Part shown: piece after piece, positions 11,982-29,630 of the stretch
Numbering within the stretch: the stretch's first letter is position 1
Layout of the letters: each line of letters opens with the position of its first letter
From: Pseudomonas brassicacearum subsp. neoaurantiaca
GTDB taxonomy: Bacteria > Pseudomonadota > Gammaproteobacteria > Pseudomonadales > Pseudomonadaceae
Length of the DNA stretch: 64,000 nt
Direction: 5' to 3'
Assembly (NCBI RefSeq): GCF_013608025.1
Contig: NZ_VDLV01000007.1
Coordinates: forward strand, 1 to 64,000
Notes under the pieces: model-generated
What the model was told of the DNA's origin: nothing
The model's input: only the letters and a program-made list of their open reading frames with translations
Database searches by the model: none
Translations under genes and position numbers: made by a program

Positions 11982-11993
11982 AACGCGACTGAC

Positions 11994-13403: not shown

Positions 13404-14612
13404 TCAAGCCGCGACCTCGTCATGCCACGAACCGAACGGGTCCGGTAACAGACGCCAGGCCTCCATGCCCAGCGCCATTTCCGCATCGGTAAGCAGGCAG
13501 GCGTCCAGCTCTTCGGTGAGTTGGTCAAAGTCTACATTTTGGCCGATGAACACTAGCTCCTGACGGCAATCGCCTGTCGCCGCCAGCCAGTTCTTCATGA
13601 TCGTGGTGGTACTGTCCTCATCCTGCGGCCATTGATGTTTCGGCACAAACCGCCACCAACGTCCGGCGAACCCATAACGCATCAAACCGCCGGCCTGGGA
13701 CCAATTCCCTGCTTCTTCAGGTTTGCTCGCCAACCAGAAAAAACCCTTCGAGCGCAGGAGCCTGCCATTAGGCCAAGGGCGGTCGATAAACGTGAAAAAG
13801 CGCTCGGGATGAAACGGCCGACGTGCCCGGTACGCTGTCGAGGCGATGCCATACTCCTCGGTCTCCGGTACAGCCTCGCCTCGCAAAGCTTGCAGCCAAC
13901 CGGGTGCCTGGGCGGCGCGTTGAAAGTCGAAAAGGCCGGTGTCGAGGATGCTGGCCAGCGGCACCTGGCCCATTACCATGGGGACAATTCGCGCGTGGGT
14001 GTTGAGACGCTCCAGGATCGCGATAAGCTCCTCTCGCTCCTGTTGGCTGATCAAGTCGATCTTGCTGATCAGAATCACGTCGGCAAATTCGATCTGTTCA
14101 ATCAGCAGCTCAGTGATTGAGCGCTCGTCCTCTTCCCCCAGGGTTTCGCCCCGGGACGCAAGGCTCTCGGCGGCGTGGTAATCCAACAGAAAATTAACAC
14201 CGTCGACCACCGTCACCATTGTGTCCAGACGTGCGACATCGGCAAGGCTCCGGCCTTCGTCATCGCGAAACGTGAAGGTTTCCGCCACCGGCAGCGGCTC
14301 GGATATGCCTGTGGATTCGATCAACAGGTAATCAAAACGCCCTTCCCTGGCAAGTTGCCCGACTTCTTCAAGCAAGTCCTCGCGCAATGTACAACAGATG
14401 CAGCCGTTGCTCATTTCCACCAGCTTCTCTTCGGCACGATTCAGGGAGACATCTCGCTGGACTTCGGTGCCATCGATGTTGATCTCGCTCATATCGTTGA
14501 CGATCACCGCTACACGCAAATTGTCCCGGTTGCGCAGGATGTGGTTGAGCAACGTGCTCTTACCGGCACCGAGGAAGCCGGAAAGCACGGTTACGGGAAG
14601 GCGATTGGGCAT
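13404..14612 (-). CDS. COG0523 zinc metallochaperone GTPase, Zur-controlled (ZigA/ZagA-type)
   Basis: 402 residues, the long subclass of COG0523 proteins. Walker [10 protein letters not shown] (12-20), metal motif NGCICC (69-74), [19 protein letters not shown] (guanine recognition) and a C-terminal CobW_C domain (about 265-400, RPFHPERF...FFWLASKP). It is expected to hydrolyse GTP and hand zinc to client enzymes during zinc starvation. The start is ATG 14612 (MPNRLPVT), since AGGATA is correctly spaced; an earlier Met at 14627 overlaps that ribosome site. A perfect Zur-type box lies 59 bp upstream and is shared with the divergent gene at 14729. Confidence 0.92.
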
Positions 14613-14670
14613 TGGGTATATCCTCATCGATGGCCGTTCCGGCTCGACATGTTGGGGCAGGCTTATTTAC

Positions 14671-14683
14671 GTTATACTATAAC
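14671..14683. promoter_or_regulatory. Zur box between COG0523 gene and small secreted gene
   Basis: GTTATACTATAAC, a perfect 6+1+6 palindrome of the Zur type found in gammaproteobacteria. It carries a -10-like hexamer on each strand (TATACT plus, TATAGT minus), so one bound dimer could shut both divergent promoters. An identical 13-mer occurs at 15188-15200. Confidence 0.85.
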
Positions 14684-15187: not shown

Positions 15188-15200
15188 GTTATACTATAAC
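15188..15200 (+). promoter_or_regulatory. Zur box upstream of folE2-ABC operon
   Basis: GTTATACTATAAC inside a longer 19-bp perfect palindrome (15185-15203, arms GACGTTATA/TATAACGTC). It is 31 bp ahead of folE2 and identical in core to the box at 14671-14683. It should repress folE2 and the metal importer when zinc is sufficient. Confidence 0.88.
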
Positions 15201-15230: not shown

Positions 15231-16127
15231 ATGAATGCGTTAACGCTGCCCGACGTCGCTGCGCAGATTTCACGCCAAGCTCTTCCCCTCGATTGGGTCG
15301 GTATGTGTGGAGTTGCTATTCCCGTACTGATTGGCGGCCATCGTCTTCAGGCAAGGGCCGATGCGGGTGTCAGCCTGGATGATCGTGAGGCTCGCGGTAT
15401 CCACATGTCGCGCTTGTACCTGGCGCTGGAAACGCTCGAAGGTATTGAGCTTTCACCCAGGCTGCTACGCCGCATCCTGCAGCAGTTCCTTGATAGCCAC
15501 GAAGGCTTGTCCCAGGCGGCGTCATTGAGTATCCACACGGATCTAATGCTCAAACGCCCGGCAATGGTTAGCCCTCTCAGCGGCTGGAAGCGATATCCGG
15601 TGAGCTTGGAAGCTAGCTTGAAAGACGCTATGTTCCACGTGGAACTTCGAATTCAGATTCCCTACTCCTCCACCTGTCCGTGCTCGGCGGCACTCGCTCG
15701 GCAACTGATTCAGCAGCAATTCGTCGACGACTTCGCAAACAAAACGCTGAAGCACGCCGAGATTCTCGCCTGGCTGGGCTCGTCAAATGGCATCGTTGCC
15801 ACTCCCCATAGCCAGCGCAGCACGGCAACGCTGACCCTGCGGTTGAACAATGAGATCGAGGAATTACCGCTCCAATCATTCATCGACGCAGCGGAAGCAG
15901 CCCTCGGCACCGCGGTACAAACCGCCGTCAAGCGCGCCGACGAACAGGCATTCTCGCTAGCCAACGGCCAAAACCTGATGTTCTGCGAAGACGCCGCGCG
16001 GCGGCTCACCACAGCCTTGGCAAAGCCTTCTCTAATCGATGCGCTGACTGTAAGGGTCGTTCACGCCGAAAGCCTGCACGCCCATGACGCCGTGGCCGAA
16101 TGTAGCTGGACGCGAGGCGCATCATGA
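15231..16127 (+). CDS. folE2: GTP cyclohydrolase FolE2 (type IB)
   Basis: 298 residues. It converts GTP to 7,8-dihydroneopterin triphosphate, the first step of folate synthesis, using a promiscuous metal site instead of the strict zinc of FolE. Diagnostic segments: ARGIHMSRLYLALE, the catalytic cysteine in SSTCPCS (Cys149), and TPHSQRSTATL. Zinc-independent replacements of this kind are typically induced by Zur derepression, and a Zur box lies 31 bp upstream. The stop overlaps the next ATG by 4 bases, coupling it to the metal ABC importer. Confidence 0.95.
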   Translation: MNALTLPDVAAQISRQALPLDWVGMCGVAIPVLIGGHRLQARADAGVSLDDREARGIHMSRLYLALETLEGIELSPRLLRRILQQFLDSHEGLSQAASLSIHTDLMLKRPAMVSPLSGWKRYPVSLEASLKDAMFHVELRIQIPYSSTCPCSAALARQLIQQQFVDDFANKTLKHAEILAWLGSSNGIVATPHSQRSTATLTLRLNNEIEELPLQSFIDAAEAALGTAVQTAVKRADEQAFSLANGQNLMFCEDAARRLTTALAKPSLIDALTVRVVHAESLHAHDAVAECSWTRGAS

Positions 16128-16792
16128 TTAGCTGCCAAGCCCTGAGCTGGGGCGCTCCCGGACAACCGCTGACACCCCCGCTCACAATGGAGCGACCGGC
16201 AGGGAGCCTCACGGCGATCATCGGTGCCAACGGCTCAGGCAAAACCAGTCTTTTGAAGGTATTGGCGGGCCTGCAAAAACCTTTAGCCGGCAAAGCCACC
16301 ATCAACGTACCCAAGCGCGGCGGCGTTTCATTCCTGCCGCAACAGCAACATCTGGACCGACAATTCCCCATCAGCCTGCAGGAGTTGGTTGCCGCCGGCG
16401 CTTGGGGGAGCTCACACACACCGGCGATGCGGCGTCTTCGATTGAAGACCGCGCTAGAAGACTGGGCCCTGAGCGGACTCGAGCAACGCCCCTTGATGGC
16501 ATTGTCTGGAGGCGAATTGCAGCGCGCTCTGCTCGCCCGACTGAGTCTGGCTGATGCACCGCTGCTGTTGCTGGATGAACCTCATGCTGCCCTGGATGAA
16601 CAGGGCCAAGCGCTGCTGTGGAAACACCTCCACCGTTGGCATGCCGAGGGCAAGACCGTGGTGCTGGTGTGTCATGACCTGGGCGCCGTACGCGAACATA
16701 TTCCCCATACCCTGCTGGTGAGCAATTCACGCTGCGTACTGGGCCGAAGTGTCGACTTGATTGCGCAGCAACCCCGCGCTTGGGTGGCCTGA
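16124..16792 (+). CDS. Metal (zinc-type) ABC transporter ATP-binding protein
   Basis: 222 residues. Walker A GANGSGKT (34-41), signature LSGGE (127-131), Walker B LLLLDEP (147-153), H-loop CHDLG (His184). It belongs to the ZnuC/TroB/AztA group and powers import of a divalent metal through the permease encoded next. It lacks the C-terminal extension found in E. coli ZnuC. It overlaps folE2 by 4 bases and the permease gene by 1 base, so all are one operon under the upstream Zur box. This appears to be an accessory importer; a canonical znuABC-zur locus would be elsewhere. Confidence 0.9.
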   Translation: MISCQALSWGAPGQPLTPPLTMERPAGSLTAIIGANGSGKTSLLKVLAGLQKPLAGKATINVPKRGGVSFLPQQQHLDRQFPISLQELVAAGAWGSSHTPAMRRLRLKTALEDWALSGLEQRPLMALSGGELQRALLARLSLADAPLLLLDEPHAALDEQGQALLWKHLHRWHAEGKTVVLVCHDLGAVREHIPHTLLVSNSRCVLGRSVDLIAQQPRAWVA

Positions 16793-17658
16793 TGCTTGCG
16801 GCCACTCATTTTTGGCAACCCTTTCAGGAATTCGTCTTCATGCGCCGGGCCTTGCTTGGCGGCCTGGTGTTGGCATGCAGTACAGCGCCGCTGGGCGTAT
16901 TCCTGATTCTGCGGCGCATGAGTTTGATTGGTGATGCGGTGGCTCACGGCATTTTGCCCGGCGCCGCGCTGGGTTTCTGGATCGCGGGCCTGAGCCTGCC
17001 GGCTTTGACGTTAGGCGGCTTGGGCGCGGGTTTGAGCATGGCAGGGCTCGCCGCTTGGATTACCCGACGTACGGGTCTGCGGGAAGACGCCAGCCTCGCA
17101 GCGATTTATCCGATTTCCCTGGCGGCCGGCGTGTTGATTCTTGGCTTGGCCGGTAAACGCCTGGACCTGCTGCACTTATTGTTCGGCTCCGCATTGGCGG
17201 TGGACGGCCCGACCTTGACCGGCATGCTCTGGGTCTGCGGGGTCAGTCTTGTAACCATGGCATTGATTTATCGACCGCTGCTGCTCGACACCCTGGATCC
17301 CCTGTTCCTACAAACAGTCAGCCGCCTGGGTCCGTTGGCCCATGGTGTGTTTCTGACCCTAGTAGTGTTGAACCTGGTGATAGGTTTCCAGGCCATCGGC
17401 GCGCTGATGGTAGTCGGCTTGATGATGTTGCCGGCGGCCGCTTCACGGTTCTGGAGCCGACGCCTGCCCGTTCTGATGATGATCTCGGCACTGCTCGGTT
17501 GCGTCTCGGTGTGGCTGGGGTTGCTGTTGTCTTTCAATTTCTCGCTTCCAAGCGGGCCGGCCATCGTCCTGGTGGCCGGCGCGTCCTACCTGCTGTCCGT
17601 GGTATTCGGTCCGGTGCACGGTCTCCTGCGCCGCCCGCCCATGCTCACATCCCAATGA
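16792..17658 (+). CDS. Metal (zinc-type) ABC transporter permease
   Basis: 288 residues, ABC-3 family with 8-9 hydrophobic segments. Marks are the family start FMRRALLGGLVLACSTAPLGVFLILRRMSLIGDAVAHGILPG and the coupling-helix area IGFQAIGALMVVGLMMLPAAASRF. It forms the inner-membrane channel for a divalent metal, with the ATPase upstream and binding protein downstream. The start is ATG 16792, overlapping the previous stop by one base (TGATG). Confidence 0.92.
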   Translation: MLAATHFWQPFQEFVFMRRALLGGLVLACSTAPLGVFLILRRMSLIGDAVAHGILPGAALGFWIAGLSLPALTLGGLGAGLSMAGLAAWITRRTGLREDASLAAIYPISLAAGVLILGLAGKRLDLLHLLFGSALAVDGPTLTGMLWVCGVSLVTMALIYRPLLLDTLDPLFLQTVSRLGPLAHGVFLTLVVLNLVIGFQAIGALMVVGLMMLPAAASRFWSRRLPVLMMISALLGCVSVWLGLLLSFNFSLPSGPAIVLVAGASYLLSVVFGPVHGLLRRPPMLTSQ

Positions 17659-17669
17659 GGTGTTTCTCG

Positions 17670-18545
17670 ATGCGCGCCCTGCTCCTGCTCTTCAGCTTGA
17701 TGCTTTCAATGTCCCTGTCTGCCGCCGAAAAACTCAAGGTAGTGACCAGCTTCAGCATCCTTGCCGACATGACCCAACAAGTCGGCGGCGAACACGTCCA
17801 GATCATCAACATGGTTGGACCGGACGCCGATGCGCACACCTACGAACCCACGCCCGACGATGCCAAGTCGCTGCTCGGGGCCAAGTTGATTATCAAGAAT
17901 GGGCTGGGCTTCGAGCCGTGGCTCGATCGCCTGGTGACCAGCACGGAAACCAAGGCTGCGCTGATCAGCGCCAGTCGAGGCGTGATTCCGCGATCACTGA
18001 ACGAAGATGGCGAGACAGTCCCCGATCCCCACGCCTGGCACAACCTCGCCAACGCGCAGCTGTACGTCAGCAATATCACCAAGGCACTCGAAGCGGCGGA
18101 TCCAGACAACAAGGCTGATTACGAACGTAACAGCCAGGCGTACCTGAAAACGATCTATGCGCTGCTTGCCGAAGCGAAGGCAAAGTTCGGCGCGCTGCCA
18201 CCAGGTAATCGCAAGATCGTTACCTCTCACGATGCGTTCGGTTACCTGGGCCAGGCCTATGGCATCGAGTTCATGGCGCCGCAGGGCCTGTCCACCGAAC
18301 GTGAGCCCTCGGCTGCTGAAGTCGCGGCGCTGATTACCCAGATCCGCCAGGCGAAAGTCAAAGCAGTATTCATGGAGAACATCAAGGACGCGCGCCTGCT
18401 CAAACAAATCGCCGATGAAAGCGGCGCGCACATCGGCGGCACGTTGTACTCGGACGCCCTGGCGGCCAGCGGCCCTGCCAGTACGTTTACCGGGTTGTTC
18501 GAGTACAACCTCAACACGCTGTACGAGGCGTTGAGCCGGCCGTGA
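17670..18545 (+). CDS. Periplasmic metal-binding protein of zinc-type ABC importer
   Basis: 291 residues. Signal peptide through about residue 18 (SLSA/AEKLKV), then a cluster A-I (ZnuA/TroA-like) solute-binding fold. Predicted metal ligands by family position: His56 (AHTYEPT), His121 (DPHAWHN), His187 (TSHDAFGY) and Asp262 (YSDALA). The long His/Asp-rich loop of E. coli ZnuA is missing, so affinity or partner use may differ. The motif YSDAL and the Zur-controlled operon argue for zinc over manganese. TGAGGTG lies 8 bases before ATG 17670; it is 11 bp behind the permease gene and last in the operon. Confidence 0.9.
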   Translation: MRALLLLFSLMLSMSLSAAEKLKVVTSFSILADMTQQVGGEHVQIINMVGPDADAHTYEPTPDDAKSLLGAKLIIKNGLGFEPWLDRLVTSTETKAALISASRGVIPRSLNEDGETVPDPHAWHNLANAQLYVSNITKALEAADPDNKADYERNSQAYLKTIYALLAEAKAKFGALPPGNRKIVTSHDAFGYLGQAYGIEFMAPQGLSTEREPSAAEVAALITQIRQAKVKAVFMENIKDARLLKQIADESGAHIGGTLYSDALAASGPASTFTGLFEYNLNTLYEALSRP

Positions 18546-18599: not shown

Positions 18600-18624
18600 A
18601 ACAACTCATTACGTCCAACCCGGG

Positions 18625-19146
18625 TCAGGCCCTCGGCTTGACCGTCCCGCAATCCTGCCCCAGCCAAACGGCACGGGTGTCCAGGCTACCGTTCTGCTGG
18701 ATACCCGTGGCGTTGAACGTGCCGTTGACCTTGGTGGTGAATTCGCGATCGCTTTGGAAGGTCGCAATACCATTGCCCTGGGCTTTCGGGCAACTGAAGC
18801 GAAACTTCCATTGATTGCCGGTGCGCTCGGTGATCTGTTGCTTGCACCCGGATTGCGGATCCTGCAGCGGAATATCATTGGTCTGCACTTGAGCAGGCGT
18901 CAGGCAGACCCGAATGCCCTTTCCGCCCATGGTAATGCCTTGTTTCTCGAGCATCGCCCGTTGCTCCGGGGTCATCTGGGTTTGTAGCTGCCCGAGGATC
19001 AATTGCAGATCCGGCAGATTCTGGTTATCGACTTTCATATTGCTGGTGGTCAATTCCCACAGTCCCGGTTGAAGCATCTGCGCCTGAGCCACCAGAGGAA
19101 CCGACAAGCCAACCGCCAAGGCCAAACCCAGCAGACGAACATTCAT
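18625..19146 (-). CDS. DUF3617 secreted protein
   Basis: 173 residues. Signal peptide MNVRLLGLALAVGLSVPLVAQA, then a DUF3617 domain opening with LQPGLWELTTSNMKV. Three cysteines follow (IRVCLTP, SGCKQQ, RFSCPK) plus one near the end (GQDCGT). DUF3617 proteins are exported and of unknown function. The start at 19146 is preceded by GGAG at 9 bases and begins the signal peptide; the longer frame to 19233 has no such support. Monocistronic, divergent from cls; the 141-bp gap to cls shows no special site. Confidence 0.85.
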   Translation of the reverse strand: MNVRLLGLALAVGLSVPLVAQAQMLQPGLWELTTSNMKVDNQNLPDLQLILGQLQTQMTPEQRAMLEKQGITMGGKGIRVCLTPAQVQTNDIPLQDPQSGCKQQITERTGNQWKFRFSCPKAQGNGIATFQSDREFTTKVNGTFNATGIQQNGSLDTRAVWLGQDCGTVKPRA

Positions 19147-19287
19147 TGCAAACACTCCAGAGGACAAGTGGCCGTTAGACGCCGCCCGCAGGCTTCGGTT
19201 CAGGCCTGCGGCGAGTGAATTAAATAGCGACAATCGTCATGGAACATGGTCTGTTAAGCATTGAAACTTCAGGAGCACGGCTGCCCT

Positions 19288-20727
19288 ATGGATTATTTCG
19301 GCCCGCATGTTTTCGGTTATTTGATCGCGCTGCTTCACACCCTGGGTTCAATTGCCGCCGTCCATGCGGTGCTGACAGTGCGAACCGCCCAAGGCTCGAT
19401 CGCCTGGGCCCTTTCGTTGGTGTTCATTCCCTACCTGACGTTGATTCCATATTTGGTATTTGGCCGCAGTACATTCGATGGCTACATCAAGGCACGCCGG
19501 CAAGCCAACGAAGAAATGCGCAAGGCCATCTCCGAGCTGAACTGGCGGCCATGGGTTGAAGAAGCGCTCACCGCGCGCGCCTCCCAGGCTTACGCGTCAC
19601 TCAGGGCGATGCCGAAACTGGGGCGAGCGCCATGTCTGGCGAACAATCAGGTGCGCCTGCTGGTGAATGGACAAGCCACGTTCGAGGCGATTTTCCAGGC
19701 CATCGATAACGCTCGGGAAGCGGTCCTGGTGCAGTTCTTTATCGTCCACGACGACCGACTCGGCCAGCGCCTGCAAGCGTTGCTCCTGAAGAAGGCTGCC
19801 GAAGGCGTGGCGGTGTACCTGCTCTATGACCGTATCGGCAGTCATTCCCTACCCCACCGTTATGTCCAGGCGCTGCGCGACGGCGGCGTACACGTCAAGG
19901 CTTTCGCCACCCGCAGCGGCTGGCTCAACCGCTTTCAAGTCAACTTCCGCAACCATCGCAAGATCGTCGCCGTGGATGGTGTCTTGGGGTTTGTCGGTGG
20001 CCACAACGTGGGCGATGAATACCTGGGCGAGAAACCGCCCTTGGCTCCTTGGCGCGACACTCATGTCGAAGTCCGCGGTCCCGTGGTGGCAAGCATGCAG
20101 GAATCGTTCGCCGAAGACTGGTTCTGGGCGGCCCGTTCATTGCCACCGCTGATCCTGCCCGACACCTACCCGGACGGCGGCGTGCTCTGCCAACTGCTAG
20201 CCAGCGGACCGGCCGACGCCTACGAAACCTGTTCGCTATTTTTCGTCGAGGCCATCCACGCGGCCAACGAGCGAATCTGGATCACCACACCGTACTTCAT
20301 TCCCGATGAAGCGGTGTTCGCCGCGCTGCGCCTGGCCGTGCTGCGCGGAGTGGATGTGCGCATCCTGTTGCCGTCGCGACCCGACCATAAGATTGTCTAC
20401 GCAGCATCCAGCCTTTATGCGTTCGAAGCCGTGCGCGCCGGCGTGCGGGTGTTTCGTTATGAGCCGGGATTCCTGCACCAGAAAGTCGTGCTGATCGATC
20501 AAGAGATCAGCGCCATCGGCAGCGCGAACCTGGATAACCGCTCGTTCCGACTGAATTTCGAAGTAATGTTGCTGACTGTCGACATCGGCTTTGCCAGCGA
20601 AGTGCAGCAGATGCTCGAGCAAGATTTCGCCCAGGCCCACGAAGTCGCCAAACAAGAAAGCCGGGAGACCCACCGCCTGCAGAAGATTGGCATGCGGATC
20701 GCCCGGCTTATTTCCCCGATTCTCTAA
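19288..20727 (+). CDS. cls: Cardiolipin synthase
   Basis: 479 residues. Two N-terminal membrane helices (about 8-28 and 36-58), then two phospholipase D domains. First HKD motif at [19 protein letters not shown], second at [25 protein letters not shown]. It condenses two phosphatidylglycerol molecules to cardiolipin and glycerol at the inner membrane. The start is ATG 19288, since CAGGAG lies about 10 bases ahead and homology begins with MDYFGPH. It converges with the cyclopropane fatty acid synthase gene and overlaps it by 4 bp, so two membrane-lipid enzymes share a terminus. Confidence 0.95.
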
Positions 20728-21911
20728 GGCGTATAGATATCGTCACGGGTCCAAGGCAAGTCATGGCTTCCATCGGCGTGGGCCTTGACCGCGAGAATCT
20801 GGTGCAGATTGATCCAGCCCTTGGCAAAGGCATAGGCGCAACCGGCGAGATAAAGCCGCCAGATCCGCAGGGCCTGTTCCGGCACTTCCTTGGAAGCAGC
20901 TTCGAGGTTGTCTTCCAGACGCTCGCTCCAATGATCGAGTGTCCGTGCATAGTGCATGCGCAGGCTTTCCACATCGACAATCTCCAGCCCCGCTTCACTG
21001 ATCTCGGCAGAGATCATCGACAGGTGCGGCAGCTCGCCGTTGGGGAAGACATATTTCTCGATGAAGTCGCCAGCGCCGCGACCTACCGGGCGGCCGTCGG
21101 TGTGCTTGGCCGTGATCCCATGATTCATCACCAAGCCACCTTCGCGCACGGCCCCGAACAGCGTCTTGCAGTACTGCGTCAAATTCGCGTGCCCCACGTG
21201 TTCGAACATGCCGACACTGACGACTTTGTCGAATCGACCGTCCTGAGGCAAATCCCGGTAGTCCAACAGCTGCAGCTCGACCTGGTTTTCCAGGCCTTCA
21301 GCCTTGACCCGCTCGCGAGCCAAATCCAGTTGAGCTTGGCTCAAGGTAATGCCGAACACCTTGGCACCGAACTCTCGAGCCGCATAACGCGCCAACCCAC
21401 CCCACCCGCAGCCAACGTCCAGCAGATAATCGCCGGGTTGCAGGCGCAGCTTGCGACAGAGGTGGCGAAACTTGGCCTGCTGCGCCTGTTCGAGGGTTTC
21501 GCTGCCGGTCTCGAAATAGGCGCATGAATACGCCATGTCGCTGTCGAGCCAGAGCTGATAGAACGCGTTGGATAAATCGTAATGGTAGGAGATCGCCTTG
21601 GCGTCGGTTTCCTTGTCATGGACCGTGCGCACCGGCAGGTTACTGTCGTCTTCGTCCACCAGGGCCTGGCTCAGCTCGTCACAGACTCGAATGACTTCGT
21701 GGATCGAGCCTTCAAGTTCGAGCTTGCCTTCGACAAACGCCGCTCCCAATGCATCCAGGCTGGGATGGTTGAATTGCGCAACCATTTGTGGGTCCTTGAC
21801 CACAATCGTCACGCTGGGGTCATCACCCAGCGCGAATTCATGGCCATCCCAGAGCCGCAGCCGAAGCGGTAGATGCAGATTCTGTAAGGCCGGTGGAAGT
21901 TGAGCGAGCAT
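20724..21911 (-). CDS. cfa: Cyclopropane-fatty-acyl-phospholipid synthase
   Basis: 395 residues. It methylates cis double bonds of membrane phospholipid acyl chains using S-adenosylmethionine. Visible: [29 protein letters not shown] motif [35 protein letters not shown] (catalytic region with bicarbonate-site Glu) and [13 protein letters not shown]. The first ~100 residues are the usual lipid-contacting N-domain. The start is ATG 21911; GGGGGA lies about 6 bases ahead. In pseudomonads such genes respond to RpoS and stress. Here a 16-bp perfect palindrome sits between promoter and start (21927-21942). Confidence 0.95.
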
Positions 21912-21926
21912 GAAAAATCCCCCTTG

Positions 21927-21942
21927 TTTCAGACGTCTGAAA
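21927..21942 (-). promoter_or_regulatory. Perfect 16-bp palindrome in cfa leader
   Basis: TTTCAGACGTCTGAAA, self-complementary over its whole length with no spacer, 16 bp upstream of the cfa ATG. Size and symmetry fit a dimeric repressor site (TetR-like in style), but I do not recognise the cognate factor. As an RNA it could also form a hairpin close to the ribosome site. The rest of the gap to 22099 is AT-richer and shows no other site. Confidence 0.5.
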
Positions 21943-22099
21943 TGAGGGTAGCCCATCGTAGAAAAATAGCTGGCTATCGAATTTATAGCCTTTTTCTATC
22001 GTTCTTCTAAATCTACTGTTTTGAGCAGTAACTGCCTGAAGTGGTGCTACCTCTCGTAGTGACTGCACGCGCCTTCAACAGTTCGCTTAAATGCACAGC

Positions 22100-23995
22100 C
22101 TAGATTTTTGGCAGCGGCTCCTGGAAGCGTAGCAGTCGCCCGGCATTGCCCAGTACCAACAGCGTGCTCAAGTTATGCAGCAACGCCGCGATCATCGCCC
22201 CCGCCGCCCCAAGCCAGCCGAATGCGGCGAAAGCAACGATGGCCAGCGTCCAGCCTAGACCAATGATTACGTTGACTTGCAATGTCCGCCGGCACTGCCG
22301 ACTCAGGCGCACGCAAGTCCCGAGGCGCCGCAGGTCGCTGCCGATCAACACGATGTCCGCCGACGCGAGAGCGATATCCGCGCCACCCGCGCCCATCGCC
22401 ACGCCGACCACGCCAGCCTTGAGAGCCAATGAGTCATTGATTCCGTCCCCCACCACCATGGGCCGGAAGCCGTGGTCAATCTCGGCCATGACCCGTTGGA
22501 GTTTATCTTCCGGCAAAGCCTGCGCTTGCAACTCCTGAATACCAACCTCTTGGGCCAACGCGTTGGCCACGCTCTGGCGATCACCCGTCAACAGCAATTG
22601 GCGTCCGAGGCCAAGCGTGCGCAACTCAGTCATTGCCAGCCGCGCTTCCGGCTTGACGCTGTCGGCCAGCAACAGCCAAGCGAGGAATTGTCCGTCCAGG
22701 GCCAAGCCGGCGATCGGGCCGTCATGGTTGGGTACGGTCGTGGTCTGAATGCCCAGCCGGGCAAACAACTCGGGACGGCCGAGCGCAGCTTCGCCCTCTC
22801 CAGTCATGGCGACCACACCCAAGCCCTGGCGCTCATGAATGTCCGTGAGCGGCAAATATTGATGTTGCTCCACCAGGCCGGCCAGCGCGCGGCTGACCGG
22901 ATGGCTACTGGCCGATCCAAGACTGGCGGCCAAGGGCAACCACACCTCTGGATCATCTTGGGCCCCTTCGATCGATTGCAAGCGCAAGGTGCCATAGGTC
23001 AGGGTGCCGGTCTTATCGATCACCAGCGAAGTCAGATCCGCCAGCTCTTCGAGGAACGCCGAGCTACGGATCAGGATTCCATGGCGAGCTGCAACCGCGA
23101 TGCCGGCGATCGCCGTGGCCGGCGCCGACAGCACCAAGGCGCAGGGGCACGCCGCCACCAGAACCGCGAGCATCGCCTGGGCATCGTTGGTGACAAACCA
23201 GGTCACCGCCGCCAGCAACAACACCAGCACCAGATAGCTGCCGGCGTAGCGCTCCAGCAAGCGAGTGATTGGCGGTTTGGAACGCTCCGCGTTTTGCATC
23301 AGCGCGATGACCTTGCCCAGCGTCGACTCATCGCCGATGCGGGTCACCTCAAGGCGCAGCAGACCGTCGAGGTTGATCGCGCCACCAAAGACTTCGACCC
23401 CCACCCCCGCCTCCAAGGGCACCGACTCGCCAGTGATGGGCGCGGTGTCGAGGCTCGCCTGGCCGGACAAGACCCGACCGTCCGCCGGCACTCGGTCACC
23501 GGCGCGCACCTCCACCACATCGCCGGGCCGCAACGTGCCGTTATCGACTTCGATGATCGAGCCGTCCGCCTGCACTTTGCGGCCCTGGCTGCGGGTCAGT
23601 TGACCGAGGGCGTGAATCGCTTCTTGGGAGCCGATGACGCTGCGCTCTTCCAGCACGTGGCCGAAGATCATGATGATCGGCAACAACGCAGCCGTCAGCA
23701 GATCGCCAGTGGCCCAGGCACCGAGCATCGCAAGAGCGATCAACTGATCAGTGATGCCATGCAGGCTCGGATAACGCAGGCTGTACCAGGCGGACCGCAT
23801 TACCGGAACCGCCACCAATAGCGAGGCTGCGCCCAACAGCAACTGACTGACGCCGCTCTGCTCCGGCGACCAGCCGCGCCAGGCCAGACCCAACGCGAGC
23901 AAACCGAGGGCGAGCATCGCCAGGGTCAGTTGCCGAGCGGCTGAACGCTGCTCGGCTGAAGACAACATGGGTGAAGCAGCGGCTTGAGCGGTCAT
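22100..23995 (-). CDS. P1B-type metal-transporting ATPase without N-terminal metal-binding domain
   Basis: 631 residues. Marks: TGES actuator loop (188-191), metal-site CPC (283-285), phosphorylation motif DKTGT (327-331), the heavy-metal HP motif (365-366) and GDGIND (516-521). Eight membrane helices are expected. Two features are unusual: the protein starts almost directly at the first helix, with no CxxC heavy-metal domain, and the last helix carries ALLHNLSTLLVLGNAGRLL where Zn/Cd pumps such as ZntA have an Asp-Gly motif. This His-Asn pattern recalls the CtpC/CtpD-like branch; metal specificity cannot be assigned. It is last of four genes overlapping by 4 bases each, behind three SPFH proteins, so its partner proteins likely assemble with it. 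Confidence 0.9.
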   Translation of the reverse strand: MTAQAAASPMLSSAEQRSAARQLTLAMLALGLLALGLAWRGWSPEQSGVSQLLLGAASLLVAVPVMRSAWYSLRYPSLHGITDQLIALAMLGAWATGDLLTAALLPIIMIFGHVLEERSVIGSQEAIHALGQLTRSQGRKVQADGSIIEVDNGTLRPGDVVEVRAGDRVPADGRVLSGQASLDTAPITGESVPLEAGVGVEVFGGAINLDGLLRLEVTRIGDESTLGKVIALMQNAERSKPPITRLLERYAGSYLVLVLLLAAVTWFVTNDAQAMLAVLVAACPCALVLSAPATAIAGIAVAARHGILIRSSAFLEELADLTSLVIDKTGTLTYGTLRLQSIEGAQDDPEVWLPLAASLGSASSHPVSRALAGLVEQHQYLPLTDIHERQGLGVVAMTGEGEAALGRPELFARLGIQTTTVPNHDGPIAGLALDGQFLAWLLLADSVKPEARLAMTELRTLGLGRQLLLTGDRQSVANALAQEVGIQELQAQALPEDKLQRVMAEIDHGFRPMVVGDGINDSLALKAGVVGVAMGAGGADIALASADIVLIGSDLRRLGTCVRLSRQCRRTLQVNVIIGLGWTLAIVAFAAFGWLGAAGAMIAALLHNLSTLLVLGNAGRLLRFQEPLPKI

Positions 23996-25044
23996 TGTCC
24001 GGCTCCCTGAATGATCAGACGGGAATCGTCCTTTGGGTCGACCGTGGTCACTGAGTCGGCCTGACGAAGAATGCCCGGCATGCGTTCACGGTACAGGCGC
24101 AGCAGCATTTGCGGATCGCTGCCTTGGGCCTTCGCCAACCCCGACACCGAGGCTGTGTCAGCCGACGCCTTGGCGAGCCGTTCGCTGGCCTGGGCATGAG
24201 CGACTTGTATCGCACGATCGGCCTCTTGGCGGGATGCCTGGCTTTGCTTCTCGGCTTCAGTGCGGGCATTGGCGACCGCTTTGTCGGCCTGCTGGCTGGC
24301 GGTGAGCACGGCGTTGAATGCGTTGACCGCCGGCCCCGGCAGGCTCGATTGCACATCGACCCGGACCACTTCGATGCCCAGGCCCTGCCCTGTCGCGGCA
24401 AGTTCAGCCAGCCGTCGGTTGATGCCTTGTACCAAATCGCCGCGCAAGCGTTCACGACGTTCGGCGGCCTGACTGTCGCTGCCCATCAGTTCAGGGCGAG
24501 CCACCAGAATGGTGTCCAGGTCCCGCGCGGCAGCAAGCGCCAAGGCACTGCGGGTCGCCAGGCGGTCGAGTGCCGGCAAGACATGCTCGCCCTGCAGAAC
24601 GAAGGCATAAGGCTCAGTGATCTTGTAGAACACCCGAACATCCAGTTGCACCACGCCCGAATCGCCGGTCAATAAATAACCGGAACCCGCCAGGGCATCA
24701 CTGACAGGAGAGGCAAAACTGGCCACACGATCCGCTTGCAACGCCGCATCCGAACGCAGCAGATTCTCTACCCTGCGCTCCAGGACTCGGTCCGCTGCCG
24801 GGAGCAAGATGACTTGTTCCACGGGACGCGGCCACGCCAATAAAAGTCCCGCATTCTGGATGCGATCAAGCGCACCGAAATGCAGGATCACCGCACGATC
24901 CTGCGGGTCGATTTGCCGAACATTCGAAAAGATCCAGGCCAACGCGGCCAGCACCGTGACGGCATAAAGAGCGAGATAAGCCAAGCGCCCCGCCTGGATC
25001 CATGGACTCGACAACTCATTTGTTCCACGTGGAACCAAACTCAT
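23992..25044 (-). CDS. SPFH/HflC-like membrane protein (third of triplet)
   Basis: 350 residues. A short cytoplasmic start, one membrane helix (about 22-40), then an SPFH/band 7 domain (about 44-260; IDPQDRAVILHFGALDRI...GLLLAWPRPVEQV, VQLDVRVFYKITEPYAF). A long helical Ala/Glu/Gln-rich region (about 230-300) follows, typical of oligomer-forming prohibitin/flotillin-like proteins. Relatives HflK/HflC modulate FtsH in the periplasm-facing inner membrane; no FtsH gene is nearby here. It overlaps the genes before and behind by 4 bases (ATGA), coupling it to the metal ATPase. True hflKC normally sit beside hflX and hfq, so this is a separate paralogue. Confidence 0.85.
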   Translation of the reverse strand: MSLVPRGTNELSSPWIQAGRLAYLALYAVTVLAALAWIFSNVRQIDPQDRAVILHFGALDRIQNAGLLLAWPRPVEQVILLPAADRVLERRVENLLRSDAALQADRVASFASPVSDALAGSGYLLTGDSGVVQLDVRVFYKITEPYAFVLQGEHVLPALDRLATRSALALAAARDLDTILVARPELMGSDSQAAERRERLRGDLVQGINRRLAELAATGQGLGIEVVRVDVQSSLPGPAVNAFNAVLTASQQADKAVANARTEAEKQSQASRQEADRAIQVAHAQASERLAKASADTASVSGLAKAQGSDPQMLLRLYRERMPGILRQADSVTTVDPKDDSRLIIQGAGQ

Positions 25045-26075
25045 GGTCGCTTACCGTCTTTCAATTCCTCGGTGGGAGGACCGTCCACCAAGACTCGGAA
25101 TGGCGCCGCGTCGGTGCGCAGGATCAGCTTGCTACTCGGGCTGACGATCGTGCCCAAGGTGTCCAGCGAGCGCAGCAGATTGTAGAGCTGCGGAGATCCC
25201 GCGTAGGCCTTGCCGTAGATTTCGGCCGCTTCGACTCGTGATTGCGCTTCTATGGCAGCGGCCTTGACGGTCGCGTCGGCCTGCAGGACCCGCGCGTCAC
25301 GTTCAGCCGCTGAGCGAATCTGCGCCGCTTCGCGCTTACCGATGGCCGTGCGCTCCGTGGCGATGGTCTCGCGCTCGGCGCGCATACGGTCCACCGTCGC
25401 GTTGAGCGTCACCGAGGGCAAGGTCAGGCGTTCGATGCCAACCTGCAGCACCCGCACGCCGTAGGTCGTGAGCAATTGCTGTTCGATCTGCCGGCGCAGT
25501 TGGGTTTCGAAATCGGCTATGCGGACTTTGTTCGCATCGGTATTGACCAGGTTCGCCAAGTCGAAACTGGCGGCCGTGGTTTCCAGGGCTGAGCCGACAA
25601 ACGTGCGAATCTGCCGCGCGGCTTCATCCGGCTGATTCTGCACTGCACGCATGAAACGCTGCACATTGTCAGGGTCGCCCTGCACCTGCCATGTCACATA
25701 AGCCTGGATGATGATTCGCAGACCGTCCCGCGTACCGACATCCTGCAATCCGCTGGAGGTGGTACGCAGCCGCAAGTCCACCGGGATCGCCGCTTCGAAC
25801 GGTGCCGGCCAGCGCCAGCCAAGGCCCGGCTGCAGCAATACCCGCGCGGGGTTGCCAAAACGCGTAATCACCGTGGCCTCGCCCGAGCGCACTTGCACCA
25901 GGCTCGCCGCCGCGATGGCAAACGCCACGAGCAGCCCCGCCCACCCCATCCGTCTCCAGGGAAATGGCCCGGCGGGCTGCGGATCGCCATGATGATGGTG
26001 GTGGTGTCCATGGTGATGGCCGGCATGGGCGTGATCGGTATGGTCGTGATGGCCGTGTGAAGAAGACTGGCTCAA
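25041..26075 (-). CDS. SPFH/HflC-like membrane protein with histidine-rich N-terminus (second of triplet)
   Basis: 344 residues. Residues 7-29 contain 15 histidines with Asp, Gly and Ala, a likely metal-binding tail ahead of the single membrane helix (about 43-61). The SPFH domain follows (VRSGEATVITRFGNPARVLLQPGLGWRWPAPFEAA, IIIQAYVTWQV), with the helical region TERTAIGKREAAQIRSAAE (about 240-300). The tail may supply the metal-capturing element missing from the P1B ATPase two genes downstream. With a topology like HflC it would face the cytoplasm. It is coupled by 4-base overlaps on both sides. HflC-like annotation is by fold only; a role in metal handling is inference from tail and operon. 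Confidence 0.85.
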   Translation of the reverse strand: MSQSSSHGHHDHTDHAHAGHHHGHHHHHHGDPQPAGPFPWRRMGWAGLLVAFAIAAASLVQVRSGEATVITRFGNPARVLLQPGLGWRWPAPFEAAIPVDLRLRTTSSGLQDVGTRDGLRIIIQAYVTWQVQGDPDNVQRFMRAVQNQPDEAARQIRTFVGSALETTAASFDLANLVNTDANKVRIADFETQLRRQIEQQLLTTYGVRVLQVGIERLTLPSVTLNATVDRMRAERETIATERTAIGKREAAQIRSAAERDARVLQADATVKAAAIEAQSRVEAAEIYGKAYAGSPQLYNLLRSLDTLGTIVSPSSKLILRTDAAPFRVLVDGPPTEELKDGKRP

Positions 26076-28033
26076 TGGGCAGCTCCTGGCTGGACAGGGT
26101 TACGTGGCGATACGGGGTCTGTCGGCAATGTGAAGGTTCGCAAATCAATGGTCGGCAGGCTGCCGTTGTCGCCGAGGCGGTGGTCGAGGATCAGCAGGCT
26201 CGCCTTGCCCAGCCCTTGGCTCAGTTGCCCGAGGTATTGCTCCAGCACAAAGGCATGGCCCGCTGTTGCGTAGGCTTTGCGTTCCGCCTCAAAGCGCAAG
26301 TCCGCAGCCTGCGCGGCAGCGTTGATTTCGCGGGCGGCGGCCTCGGCCTGGTCGTGTGCATTGCTGGCCTGCAGTTGCGCCTGGTTGGTTTGCTCCGCAG
26401 CGGCGCCGCGCTCCCGGGCGATGAGCGCCTGGGCACCGATCTGCGCGGCTTGTACGCCGTGGTAGGCATTGGCCGCGCCAGCCGGAGGGTGAATCGCCTC
26501 GACCACGGTTGCCAGGATTTCCACGCCGCTATCGAGTGACTGCAAGTCGGCCTGCACTGCCTTGCCGATTTCCTCGGCCAGGCTGACCCGGTCGGCACCC
26601 AACAATCCGTCCAATGTCCGCGACGCAAACTCATGAACGAGGATGCGGCTGGCGGTGCTGCGGATCAGCGTTGGCACATCGGTGCTGTTATAAGTCGCGG
26701 CCAGCGCCGCCGCATCCGTCAGGCCGATGCGGTAGACGAAACGTACATCCATGTTGACGATCTGGAAGCTCTGTTGATCGGCGCGCTGGCTGGCAATGAC
26801 CTGAGATTTGTCGTTCACGTGGCTAGCGTCCCACAACCTATTGGCAATGGCCGGAGCCGGTCCTTCCGCTGGCGCGGCCTCGGTAGTGACGCGAGCATCG
26901 CCGACGCTGGTTGCCAGTTCATGCACGACGCCGTTCTCGACACTCAATACCCTGCCCCACGGCCAAGGCAACCCGACGTGCAAACCCGGGCCGAAAACCT
27001 GCGCCGGTTCGCCGAAACGCTCATAAATGCCGCGCGCTTGCAGCGGCACTTCATGCACGCCCGTCAGCAACCAGCCGACCAGCGACACCACCGCCAATAC
27101 TGGCCAGAACGCCCGGCGCATGTAGCTGAACGCCCAGATCTGGCGCAGGTCGATGCCAAAGCGATTGTGCAACTCATGCTGCAGGGCCAATAGCGGCTGC
27201 GGTGGCCAGCGCAGCAGGTCGGCGAGCACACTTCGCCCCAACAATGTTGGCTCCAACGTATCGCGCCGCGGGCTGAATAACGCCAACGCTGCACGAAGCA
27301 ACAACTCCACCGCCACCAGCCCCGGCAATATGCCCATCAGCACCGCAAGGCGCGCCGGCCAGATCGACGTTTCCCCGGCGAAGAGCAGGCAAAAGGCACC
27401 AAGCACGAGGACGATGATCGCCACTCGTGCCAGTTGCGCCAGCGGCCGTGCTTCTGGCCATTCGATCACGGGTTGTTGCGCCAGGTGACGTTCAAACACC
27501 AACAAGCCAAACGCCACTGACAACGACAGCACCGCGCCAACACTGGCCGCGACACCGAGGGAAGCAGCCGGTAAAGCCAGGCTCCAGACTTGCTCCAGAC
27601 TCAGCAGGATCAGCAGCGCCCAGCCACCAAGCCATAAGACAGGCGCGCCGATTTGCTTCAACAAACCGCTCCACCGGGTGCTGATTCGCTCAAGCAGTCG
27701 CTCGTAAGCGCCCAGGTTATCAACAGGCTCGCGGGGTATAGGCGAGATATCCACAGCCGGCTGCAATGTCGTGCGGCGCCACTGCGTCACCCACCACGCC
27801 GATTGCAGGCCCGCCACCAGTACCCATAGGCCGGCGGTTTGACCGACCAACAAGGCCGGCCACACCGATTGTGGTGAGAACACGCCGATGAAAAACGCCA
27901 GCACCAGTGCGAAACCCGCCAGACCGCCCAACGCAAAAGCAATCCGCCTCAAGCGGCGCGCTTGGAAGGCGGCCTGCTGGAAGCGCGGCCATTCGGCCAC
28001 CTGTGCGTCTTCAACCTCAAGATCGACTTGCAT
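26072..28033 (-). CDS. Large SPFH/HflK-like protein with extra polytopic membrane domain (first of triplet)
   Basis: 653 residues, far longer than HflK (about 400). Residues 1-330 hold about seven hydrophobic segments (for example AFALGGLAGFALVLAFFIGVF, LLVGQTAGLWVLVAGLQSAWW, VAIIVLVLGAFCLLFAG). After the last one (FWPVLAVVSLVGWLLTGV) an SPFH domain begins (VPLQARGIYERFGEPAQVFGPGLHVGLPWPWGRV) and extends to about 560, followed by an Ala/Gln-rich helical region. Start: ATG 28033 (MQVDLEVED) is preferred to the TTG 24 bases upstream. A near-match to the Zur box lies 68 bp upstream. It overlaps the following gene by 4 bases; no FtsH or HflX is nearby. Confidence 0.82.
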   Translation of the reverse strand: MQVDLEVEDAQVAEWPRFQQAAFQARRLRRIAFALGGLAGFALVLAFFIGVFSPQSVWPALLVGQTAGLWVLVAGLQSAWWVTQWRRTTLQPAVDISPIPREPVDNLGAYERLLERISTRWSGLLKQIGAPVLWLGGWALLILLSLEQVWSLALPAASLGVAASVGAVLSLSVAFGLLVFERHLAQQPVIEWPEARPLAQLARVAIIVLVLGAFCLLFAGETSIWPARLAVLMGILPGLVAVELLLRAALALFSPRRDTLEPTLLGRSVLADLLRWPPQPLLALQHELHNRFGIDLRQIWAFSYMRRAFWPVLAVVSLVGWLLTGVHEVPLQARGIYERFGEPAQVFGPGLHVGLPWPWGRVLSVENGVVHELATSVGDARVTTEAAPAEGPAPAIANRLWDASHVNDKSQVIASQRADQQSFQIVNMDVRFVYRIGLTDAAALAATYNSTDVPTLIRSTASRILVHEFASRTLDGLLGADRVSLAEEIGKAVQADLQSLDSGVEILATVVEAIHPPAGAANAYHGVQAAQIGAQALIARERGAAAEQTNQAQLQASNAHDQAEAAAREINAAAQAADLRFEAERKAYATAGHAFVLEQYLGQLSQGLGKASLLILDHRLGDNGSLPTIDLRTFTLPTDPVSPRNPVQPGAAH

Positions 28034-28100
28034 ACCACCCCAGCTCGTGGCGACCAAAATCCGGACTGTGGTCTACGCCACCGCCGTTCCGTTACGTGTC

Positions 28101-28113
28101 GTTACCTTATAAC
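28101..28113 (-). promoter_or_regulatory. Candidate Zur box in front of the SPFH/P1B-ATPase operon
   Basis: GTTACCTTATAAC. It matches the two perfect boxes at 14671 and 15188 (GTTATACTATAAC) at 10 of 13 positions; the right half TTATAAC fits fully and the left half departs at two positions. It overlaps a minus-strand -10-like TATAAG, as the perfect boxes overlap theirs. Binding is unproven. Confidence 0.4.
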
Positions 28114-28162
28114 TATTGCTGTGAAATTTCTGTTTTGAATTCTTCACGATAGGCGTTGAGCC

Positions 28163-28203
28163 TTGACCGTGATCGTTCGACGCGCTCATATTATGATCAT
28201 AAT
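28163..28203 (+). promoter_or_regulatory. Putative promoter and 14-bp palindrome ahead of lpd
   Basis: TTGACC (28163-28168), 18-bp spacer and CATATT (28187-28192) form a fair sigma70 promoter. ATTATGATCATAAT (28190-28203) is a perfect palindrome over the -10 and start, 26 bp before the lpd ATG. The binding factor is not recognised. Confidence 0.4.
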
Positions 28204-28229
28204 TTTTTCAGCCATGCGGGAGATCGGTG

Positions 28230-29630
28230 ATGAGCAATTACGACGTGATCATTCTGGGCGGTGGACCCGGCGGCTATAACGCGGCCATTCGAGCCGGACA
28301 ACTGGGGTTGAAAGCCGCCTGCGTCGAAGGTCGCGCCACCCTGGGTGGCACCTGCCTGAACGTCGGCTGCATGCCCTCCAAGGCGCTGCTCCACGCGTCC
28401 GAACTCTACGACGCGGCCAAGGGCAACGAATTCGCTCATCTGGGCATCAACGTCAGCCCTACCCTCGACCTCGCACAGATGATGAAGCAGAAGGACGAAA
28501 GCGTGGCAGGCCTGACCAAGGGCATCGAGTTTCTGTTTCGCAAGAACAAGGTCGACTGGATCAAGGGCTGGGGCCATATCGATGGGCCCGGCAAAGTGAC
28601 TGTGACCGGCGAAGACGGCAACAAGGTTGAGCTAAGCGCCAAGGACATCATTATCGCCACCGGCTCGGAGCCGACGCCGCTGCCGGGCGTGGATATCGAT
28701 AACCGCCGCATCCTGGATTCCACCGGCGCGTTGTCCTTGGCCGAGGTGCCCCGGCATTTGGTGGTGATTGGCGCAGGCGTCATCGGCCTCGAGCTGGGTT
28801 CGGTCTGGCGACGCCTGGGTGCCCAAGTGACCGTGGTGGAATACCTCGATCGCATTTGCCCGGGGACGGATGGCGAGACCGCCAAGACCCTGCAACGGGC
28901 CTTGGCCAAACAGGGCATCGAATTCAAATTGAGCACCAAGGTCACTCGCGCGGAGTCCTCCGAAAACGGCGTGCAATTGCAGTTCGAACCCGCGTCAGGT
29001 GGCGAGGCACAGACCCTGGATGCCGACTACGTGCTGGTCGCCATCGGCCGTCGGCCTTATACCCAAGGGCTGGGCCTGGAGAACGTCGGCCTGGCGACGG
29101 ACAAACGCGGCATGCTCGCCAACCAGCGCCACCGCACCGAAGCCCTCGGCGTTTGGGTCATTGGCGACGTGACTTCCGGACCGATGCTGGCCCATAAGGC
29201 CGAGGATGAGGCCATGGCCTGCCTCGAACAGATCGTCGGTAAGGCCGGCGAGGTCAATTACGACCTGATCCCGAACGTCATCTACACCCGTCCGGAACTG
29301 GCCAGCGTCGGCAGGACCGAAGAGCAGCTCAAGGCCGAAGGCCGCGCCTACAAGGTTGGAAAATTTCCTTTTACCGCCAACAGCCGGGCGAAGATCAACC
29401 ATGAGACCGAAGGGTTCGCCAAGGTCCTGGCCGATGAACACACTGACGAAATTCTCGGCGTGCATCTGGTCGGGCCGAGTGTCAGCGAGATGATCGGCGA
29501 ATACTGCGTGGCCATGGAGTTTGGCGCCTCAGCCGAAGACATCGCGCTGATTTGCCACCCGCACCCCACACGCTCGGAGGCGTTGCGCCAGGCGGCGATG
29601 AATGTGGAGGGGATGGCGACGCAGATGTAG
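28230..29630 (+). CDS. lpd: Dihydrolipoyl dehydrogenase
   Basis: 466 residues, normal length for the E3 enzyme. It reoxidises dihydrolipoamide of 2-oxo acid dehydrogenase complexes or the glycine cleavage system with FAD and NAD+. Visible: FAD site GGGPGGYNAA, redox-active disulphide GGTCLNVGCMPSK, NAD site VVIGAGVIGLELG, FAD site 2 WVIGDVTSG, and the active-site His-Glu pair in HPHPTRSE. The start is ATG 28230, with GGGAGA 7 bases ahead. It stands alone without E1/E2 genes, so it is one of several Lpd paralogues usual in pseudomonads (this one resembles the stand-alone Lpd3 type). It is divergent from the SPFH operon. Confidence 0.93.
   Translation: MSNYDVIILGGGPGGYNAAIRAGQLGLKAACVEGRATLGGTCLNVGCMPSKALLHASELYDAAKGNEFAHLGINVSPTLDLAQMMKQKDESVAGLTKGIEFLFRKNKVDWIKGWGHIDGPGKVTVTGEDGNKVELSAKDIIIATGSEPTPLPGVDIDNRRILDSTGALSLAEVPRHLVVIGAGVIGLELGSVWRRLGAQVTVVEYLDRICPGTDGETAKTLQRALAKQGIEFKLSTKVTRAESSENGVQLQFEPASGGEAQTLDADYVLVAIGRRPYTQGLGLENVGLATDKRGMLANQRHRTEALGVWVIGDVTSGPMLAHKAEDEAMACLEQIVGKAGEVNYDLIPNVIYTRPELASVGRTEEQLKAEGRAYKVGKFPFTANSRAKINHETEGFAKVLADEHTDEILGVHLVGPSVSEMIGEYCVAMEFGASAEDIALICHPHPTRSEALRQAAMNVEGMATQM

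Follow-up and report, generated by a model that had tools for sequence, protein, structure and literature searches.

Three SPFH genes linked to an HmtA-type P1B ATPase gene in Pseudomonas brassicacearum: a possible dedicated assembly for a zinc pump

The stretch of DNA analysed here, called the window, is 64,000 nucleotides long and comes from contig NZ_VDLV01000007.1 of Pseudomonas brassicacearum subsp. neoaurantiaca (positions 1 to 64,000). On its minus strand, running from position 28033 to 22100, lie four consecutive genes, three for membrane proteins of the SPFH family (SPFH1, SPFH2 and SPFH3) and one for a P1B-type metal ATPase, the pump. A first-pass annotation had described them as an operon, which is confirmed by the open reading frames and by profile searches. 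All three SPFH proteins pass the Pfam model PF01145 (Band_7) with 75.7, 111.5 and 59.4 bits, respectively (gathering score 23.6), and the pump passes TIGR01525 with 519.4 bits (cut-off 346.25) as well as the cadmium-family model TIGR01512 with 487 bits. The gene order is that of the hmtA cluster of P. aeruginosa as tabulated in PMC4542158, and it is by this order that we label the pump HmtA. The locus is best read as encoding an SPFH assembly dedicated to a metal pump.

The four genes travel together. In the genus, SPFH1 is present in 90 of 149 genomes and a comparison of the two sets places the pump in the same 90; in every one the pair lies on one contig and one strand, 2018-2218 base pairs (bp) apart. 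SPFH2 and SPFH3 were each found in 90 of the 149 genomes as well, the same ones when compared by eye. The expectation value (E) limits of these searches were 1e-60 for SPFH1, SPFH2 and the pump and 1e-25 for SPFH3, and the pump cluster stands well apart, with at least 803 bits against 305 bits for the next P1B ATPase of the genus. Among 299 Pseudomonadota genomes SPFH1 and the pump again share the same 11 genomes, SPFH1 scoring more than 500 bits and the next best match 57. Pump searches in this sample, in the family of a Rhizobium copy and in the family of genome G173 used E <= 1e-95 (G, L and C numbers are our labels for genomes, loci and contigs). The G173 family is Enterobacteriaceae-like, judged by eye from the genes flanking two copies; the pump occurs in 11 of its 246 genomes, each time preceded by the trio. 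The family of the Rhizobium copy rarely has the pump: among 247 genomes it turned up in one, which is that of the query. Each search scored the best 4-15 candidates per genome, and the samples include the window's own genome.

Among named genomes we obtained 369 SPFH1 relatives and kept the best 80, namely 17 Rhizobium/Rhizobiales and 63 Pseudomonas loci. All four genes stand in order in 79 of these 80, some of them broken or truncated where the contig ends; the sole exception (L144) is a 3.3-kb contig and was dropped from the set. On plasmids SPFH1 occurs in ten of 72,556 records, and the four of these that were examined, from Klebsiella aerogenes and Burkholderia ubonensis (both typed conjugative), Rhizobium tumorigenes and Paraburkholderia sprentiae, all have the four genes in order. 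Routine occurrence of the SPFH genes without the ATPase had been named in the first-pass annotation as a finding that would undo a link; in this co-occurrence check none of the samples searched showed trio and pump apart. Chance is far from accounting for the gene order, and the genus-wide and Pseudomonadota linkage led us to reject a one-off arrangement. Pairwise distances among the four proteins correlate with r 0.94-0.98 over a set of 103 operons, as is expected of a cassette inherited whole. This set is mostly Pseudomonas; it contains at least two records twice (L051 = L121, L048 = L175) and six frameshifted or contig-end-cut members (L053, L137, L155, L192, L196, L200). A published survey gives the operon as conserved in only two of ten reference species, with a sampling that differs from ours (PMC13086221).

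Within the window each junction is an exact 4-bp overlap (shared bases 26072-26075, 25041-25044 and 23992-23995), from which the first-pass annotation had deduced that the four proteins are made in fixed proportion. The overlaps stand for all three junctions of the window but their conservation across the 90 operons of the genus is incomplete. SPFH1 and SPFH2 overlap by 4 bp in 41 operons and are separated by 11-12 bp in 49; the second junction has the 4-bp overlap in 68 of 90, and the third in 73, another 14 being scored at 13 bp, all with a mechanical choice of start codons. Because the overlap varies among operons, a fixed proportion is not deducible from it. We also rejected the 4-bp overlap as proof of stoichiometry, since it is not conserved at the first junction.

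Table 1. Features of the SPFH-pump operon and its zinc-related surroundings (positions in the window unless another locus is named)
Feature	Position	Strand	Remarks
SPFH1	26072..28033	-	653 amino acids (aa); ATG 28033, alternative TTG 28057; PaFlo5 / PA2439 type
SPFH2	25041..26075	-	344 aa; TTG start; HflC-like, one transmembrane helix; PaFlo6 / PA2438 type
SPFH3	23992..25044	-	350 aa; HflK-like, one transmembrane helix; PaFlo7 / PA2437 type
HmtA-type P1B ATPase	22100..23995	-	631 aa; CPC, DKTGT, HNLST in last transmembrane helix
His-rich tail of SPFH2	25944..26072	-	HGHHDHTDHAHAGHHHGHHHHHH and WRRM positive flank; codons 2-44
Zur-like box GTTATAAGGTAAC	28101..28113	-	candidate site for a repressor; lies upstream of SPFH1
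Perfect Zur-like palindrome GTTATAGTATAAC, zigA side	14671..14683	.	
Perfect Zur-like palindrome, folE2 side	15188..15200	.	
ZigA zinc metallochaperone GTPase	13404..14627	-	NF038288 678.7 bits, cut-off 600
FolE2-type GTP cyclohydrolase	15231..16127	+	NF010200 317 bits, cut-off 215
Azt/Znu-like metal ATP-binding cassette (ABC) transporter (ATPase, permease, binding protein)	16124..18545	+	ZnuA PF01297 278 bits, ABC-3 170 bits
Broken SPFH2	L053 8208-8212	reverse	
Broken SPFH1	G331 C1 about 935890		
Broken SPFH3	L196		

By sequence, the closest solved structures of the SPFH proteins are E. coli HflC and HflK. The trio nevertheless stays below the curated models for these proteins: SPFH1 and SPFH3 reach 55.3 and 97.6 bits with the hflK model TIGR01933 (cut-off 159.4), and SPFH2 reaches 94.5 bits with the hflC model TIGR01932 (cut-off 134.4). 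There are seven Band_7 stretches in the whole genome, and canonical hflK-hflC genes lie on a different contig (C3), with hflX beside them; the hfq-hflX-hflK-hflC neighbourhood is not seen at the SPFH operon. As the first-pass annotation had noted, FtsH, HflX and Hfq are absent from the vicinity: none was found in the part of the window that the scan covered, eleven flanking genes from 10570 to 29627, where an lpd-type oxidoreductase, cfaB, cls and the zinc genes of Table 1 are located. An SPFH-NfeD pair is not seen: Pfam detects NfeD neither in the four proteins nor in ten flanking genes. The AlphaFold models, each based on 22 sequences, are of low confidence (mean predicted local distance difference test score 58.6 for SPFH1 and 50.3 for SPFH2) and were used for the family fold of SPFH2 only. 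With the low-confidence SPFH2 model Foldseek returns HflC/HflK first (7vhq_G, E 2e-13), followed by prohibitin and stomatin; with the weak SPFH1 model it returns no match at E 0.001 or better.

This kinship is the starting point of the main rival explanation for the SPFH trio, the modulation of FtsH during zinc starvation. The three proteins would be zinc-starvation versions of HflK and HflC which re-tune the zinc metalloprotease FtsH, for instance to spare or recycle zinc, and they would share an operon with HmtA merely through the common need in zinc shortage. The closest structures and the SPFH2 model indeed point to HflK/HflC, and the P. aeruginosa homologues have been read as FtsH modulators (PMC11761036, PMC9431628). 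The scores below the hflK and hflC cut-offs, together with the canonical pair kept elsewhere in the genome, argue against it. Moreover, FtsH is near-universal, yet the trio was found with HmtA only (90/90 and 11/11), and the histidines described next point to metal. We regard this explanation as quite unlikely.

The predicted topology of the trio places histidines on both sides of the membrane. From hydropathy and the positive-inside rule SPFH1 has seven predicted transmembrane helices followed by a C-terminal SPFH/Band_7 domain, and this domain is predicted to be periplasmic because the loop charges put the N-terminus inside. SPFH2 and SPFH3 have one transmembrane helix each, as do HflC and HflK. 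The N-terminal tail of SPFH2, LSQSSSHGHHDHTDHAHAGHHHGHHHHHHGDPQ in the window, is rich in histidine and predicted to be cytoplasmic. A tail with at least six His/Cys is found on SPFH2 in 99 of the 103 operons and in the other four on the pump; at least five His/Cys in the tail of SPFH2, the pump or both are present in all 103 (mechanical choice of start codons, as for the overlaps). The canonical HflK and HflC of the genome have no histidine in their first 45 residues.

In the predicted periplasmic domain of SPFH1, His371 is conserved in 102 of the 103 operons and His405, His515 and His525 in 103 each. At these four columns none of 17 distant SPFH relatives has a histidine, nor do the genome's own HflK and HflC; the 17 are those of 19 distant loci that gave an aligned SPFH1 relative, and five of them have a gap at His371 and nine at His405. 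His352 is conserved as well, but it is not specific to the family since 7 of the 17 distant relatives share it. At a conservation of 98% SPFH2 has no histidine and SPFH3 one (His154).

In the pump itself Pfam detects no HMA domain, and the closest solved structures by sequence are 7qbz, which we take to be a CoaT-like P1B ATPase, and ZntA (4umv), with both of which it has family and catalytic motifs in common. CPC and HN(L/F)ST are present in all 21 aligned orthologs, Cys283 and Cys285 are kept in 103 of 103 operons and His607 in the last transmembrane helix in 100 of 100 aligned sequences. ZntA-type (P1B-2) exporters have a conserved Asp in the last transmembrane helix, where the pump has His607. 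CoaT-type (P1B-4) pumps combine SPC with a last-helix His, as 7qbz does; the position of the His matches 7qbz, but the pump has CPC instead of SPC. Its signature is mixed and differs from both structures. The ZntA-like paralog of the same genome reads ADMG where the pump has HNxST, and the last-helix HNxST suggests an altered transport site. (The designations ZntA-like paralog, Enterobacteriaceae-like, hflX, ytfL, msrA and tamA were given by eye.)

Another explanation keeps the complex and reverses the direction of transport. The complex would be built around an exporting HmtA, which would be fed by the cytoplasmic His tails and would supply zinc proteins of the envelope or eject a competing metal in zinc starvation. 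Cytoplasmic metal-binding N-termini usually load exporters, and this favours export. The known P1B pumps mostly export (PMC8456098, PMC10393844), and a review asks for confirmation that HmtA imports (PMC10393844). The claim of import rests on overproduction experiments, in which HmtA is reported to raise intracellular zinc and copper and to cause hypersensitivity (PMC10393844), a result that speaks against export. Expression induced by starvation also suits uptake better, and the HNxST in place of ADMG suggests a site altered from that of the ZntA-like paralog. We consider an exporting HmtA unlikely.

The surroundings of the operon suggest a link to zinc. ZigA, FolE2 and a ZnuA-family ABC transporter are encoded nearby (Table 1); the best NCBIfam models for the transporter are AztA, AztB and AztC, and all three scores lie below their cut-offs. 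A search of the 6.17-Mb genome with the pattern GTTATANNNTAAC gave three matches. Those at 14671 and 15188 fall in the zigA-folE2 interval, and the third, at 28101 upstream of SPFH1, is about 13 kb from them. A reversed control pattern likewise has three matches, so that the count alone is uninformative; the placement of the three sites does not look accidental. A box scoring at least 10 of 12 lies upstream of SPFH1 in 61 of the 63 named Pseudomonas loci and in 69 of 91 regions overall. As controls we scored 910 random 250-nucleotide segments of the same loci, some of which may contain real boxes: 14 score 10, 5 score 9 and 78 score 8. Eight of the 11 copies in the G173 family score 10 or more, and the plasmid of Paraburkholderia sprentiae carries genes for a GTP-binding protein and a zinc ABC transporter near the cassette. 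Because of the neighbouring zinc-starvation genes and the Zur-like box, starvation fits the locus better than a heavy-metal resistance (efflux) island, which we rejected.

The first-pass annotation knew of no described system with this composition. Here it was mistaken: by gene order the locus matches the published hmtA cluster PA2434-PA2439 of P. aeruginosa, whose SPFH genes have been named PaFlo5-7 by Garcia-Maldonado et al. 2026 (PMC13086221). Content and order are alike (HflK-type, HflC-type, HflC-type, pump), except that by locus number PA2436 stands between the SPFH genes and the pump, where the window has a 4-bp overlap. In a znuA mutant PA2439 (HflK family), PA2438 and PA2437 (HflC) and PA2435 (HmtA) are 5.6- to 14.4-fold up, and Pederick et al. 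2015 describe a weak Zur site at the cluster (PMC4542158). Ducret et al. 2021 found that purified Zur shifts the PA2439 promoter (PMC8531726), and in a proteomics preprint the cluster proteins increase on zinc depletion, PA2438 and PA2439 significantly (PMC11761036). Members of the cluster and its induction by zinc starvation are known already. The P. aeruginosa papers, in the passages found, treat pump and SPFH proteins separately (PMC4542158, PMC8531726, PMC11761036). The literature searched gave no paper with both HmtA and SPFH, and in none of its passages is a pump-SPFH complex proposed. In the main text of PMC13086221 the word HmtA is absent, zinc appears once (for FtsH) and a zinc-limited test is unreported. 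As far as these searches show, it is new that the linkage is obligate in different classes and on plasmids, that SPFH2 or the pump bears the tails and that SPFH1 has family-specific histidines.

Could the four genes be co-regulated only, without forming a complex, the SPFH proteins being general scaffolds for membrane stress? SPFH proteins occur with many partners, which would suit this explanation. Deletion of paFlo5-7 also gave no strong phenotype in the reported tests (PMC13086221). Against it, the genes stay together in all samples, whether from different classes or from plasmids. At the thresholds applied no pump turned up that lacked the trio, and putative metal-binding tails are carried by SPFH2, the pump or both. 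In our view co-regulation alone is improbable.

We suggest instead, with moderate confidence, that the hmtA operon encodes one zinc-acquisition machine, a periplasmic cage of the HflK/C kind around HmtA in which zinc is handed over at both faces of the membrane. SPFH1, SPFH2 and SPFH3 would co-assemble into a hetero-oligomeric cage with their SPFH domains toward the periplasm, and the membrane patch within the cage would hold HmtA in place of the FtsH protease. In zinc starvation Zur would leave the promoter and the operon would be expressed. The family-specific histidines of SPFH1 could then concentrate scarce zinc on the periplasmic side, HmtA would move it through the CPC / HNxST site, and on the cytoplasmic side the His-rich tails of SPFH2, the pump or both would take it over or buffer it. 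Our own analysis shows which genes are present, their joint inheritance, the Zur-like box, the tails, the invariant residues and the predicted topology. That zinc depletion induces the cluster, that Zur binds at the promoter of its first gene and that zinc/copper accumulates on HmtA overproduction is taken from the P. aeruginosa literature cited above. The dedicated platform of the first-pass annotation holds as far as trio and pump are never separated in the samples searched; we infer their physical association, that is, the cage, its stoichiometry and the pump inside it, as well as zinc binding by either set of histidines and the direction of flow.

The SPFH complexes known so far form domes, and that of HflK/C encloses FtsH. 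The trio would likewise arch over the membrane patch that holds HmtA, with the SPFH1 histidines inside the dome and the tails below it. Compared with the HflK/HflC-FtsH cage (7vhp, 7wi3, 9cz1), the trio is alike in the SPFH family, the predicted periplasmic domain, the single transmembrane helix of SPFH2 and SPFH3 and the long helix which follows the domain in the SPFH2 model. It differs in having three subunits rather than two, the seven predicted helices of SPFH1, scores below the hflK/hflC cut-offs, no FtsH or HflX among the scanned neighbours, the gene of a metal pump as partner and the His tails. The stomatin dome lies on the cytoplasmic side, and we know of no metal-binding tails on stomatin. 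It provides the precedent of an SPFH dome enclosing a transporter, either AQP1, with one tetramer inside the membrane patch, or UT-B, which sits at the centre; these complexes are human, have one SPFH subunit and contain a passive channel or transporter (PMC12407830). In mycobacteria, PacL-CtpC likewise unites a P1B ATPase with membrane partners that bear metal-binding motifs and form platforms, but the PacL proteins are small and of another kind and serve efflux under metal excess (PMC9374683, PMC13043812).

Several points weigh against our proposal. The co-inheritance fits any obligate functional partnership. The thresholds for the His/Cys tails were set after the tails had been seen, cytoplasmic His tails fit an exporter and an importer equally well, and the models are too weak to show whether the four SPFH1 histidines come together. 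The Zur-like box is missing in 18 Rhizobium/Rhizobiales regions and on two Burkholderiales plasmids (scores 7-9). In P. aeruginosa hmtA mRNA is constantly low and zinc does not repress it (PMC8531726), and the review that wants the import direction confirmed also states that, of the zinc-uptake promoters, Zur leaves only that of hmtA unbound (PMC10393844). Finally, the deletion of paFlo5-7 in PA14 caused no growth defect in lysogeny broth (PMC13086221).

A more far-reaching version is rather doubtful and we offer it tentatively. The operon may encode a metal-relay cage consisting of a hetero-oligomeric SPFH dome that itself binds zinc on the periplasmic side through His371, His405, His515 and His525 of SPFH1, an enclosed ATP-driven pump of inverted direction and a brush of cytoplasmic His tails; scarce zinc would be bound, transported and passed on with no loss by diffusion. 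If this is true, we know of no earlier SPFH assembly whose chemical substrate is defined, and import by a P-type ATPase would become easier to understand.

HmtA is an odd P-type ATPase, reported as an importer rather than an exporter (PMC10393844). Since an HmtA-type pump was not found without the trio (90/90, 11/11 and the further copies examined, contig ends apart), earlier studies of HmtA alone may have examined a fragment of a machine. For the long-standing question of what SPFH proteins do in bacteria, the trio offers an obligate, chemically defined partner together with metal-binding motifs, in a cassette that is also carried by plasmids typed as conjugative.

Some further observations concern the neighbourhood. 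Genes for a cardiolipin synthase and the cyclopropane fatty acid synthase CfaB adjoin the operon (window 19261-21956), so that membrane-lipid genes lie next to a putative microdomain scaffold. In a scan of 91 loci, which left out L218-L226, cfaB and cls stand beside the operon in Pseudomonas, in 65 and 62 loci, respectively; the same scan did not find them in the 18 Rhizobium/Rhizobiales loci or in L049, L050, L052 and L053, and they are not annotated in the four plasmid regions. Because of these absences we regard them as a chromosomal address and rejected them as parts of the system.

Between hmtA and cfaB 30 of the 91 loci, 27 of them among the 63 named Pseudomonas loci, carry a co-directional cassette (for example L045 2383-4316, minus strand). 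It consists of a small Cys-rich open reading frame and an MbnB/TglH/ChrH-family enzyme for ribosomally synthesized and post-translationally modified peptides, in L045 also of a DUF2063 protein. The small reading frame, of the type CYGVTSCKGMNDCKT...CKGQAVCKGHGF and about 83 aa long, is present in 29 of the 30 cassettes and has no Pfam match. Lying immediately downstream of the zinc pump gene, the cassette may encode a metal-binding peptide system. In L049 (12142-12594, genome G062) a 150-aa open reading frame, possibly exported and without a Pfam match, lies between SPFH3 and the pump, by P. aeruginosa locus number the place of PA2436; the N-terminus of the L049 pump is His-rich.

Occasionally an SPFH gene is broken in an otherwise complete operon (Table 1), possibly by sequencing error or decay. 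Upstream of SPFH1, 16 of the 17 Rhizobium/Rhizobiales loci L121-L137 have a palindrome with the core GTAATAAC (GATACGTAATAACGTATC or a variant), which in G107 occurs at one place only (C18:38640-38657, one mismatch allowed). On the conjugative-typed plasmids of K. aerogenes (L205) and B. ubonensis (L207) transposase genes lie close to the cassette.

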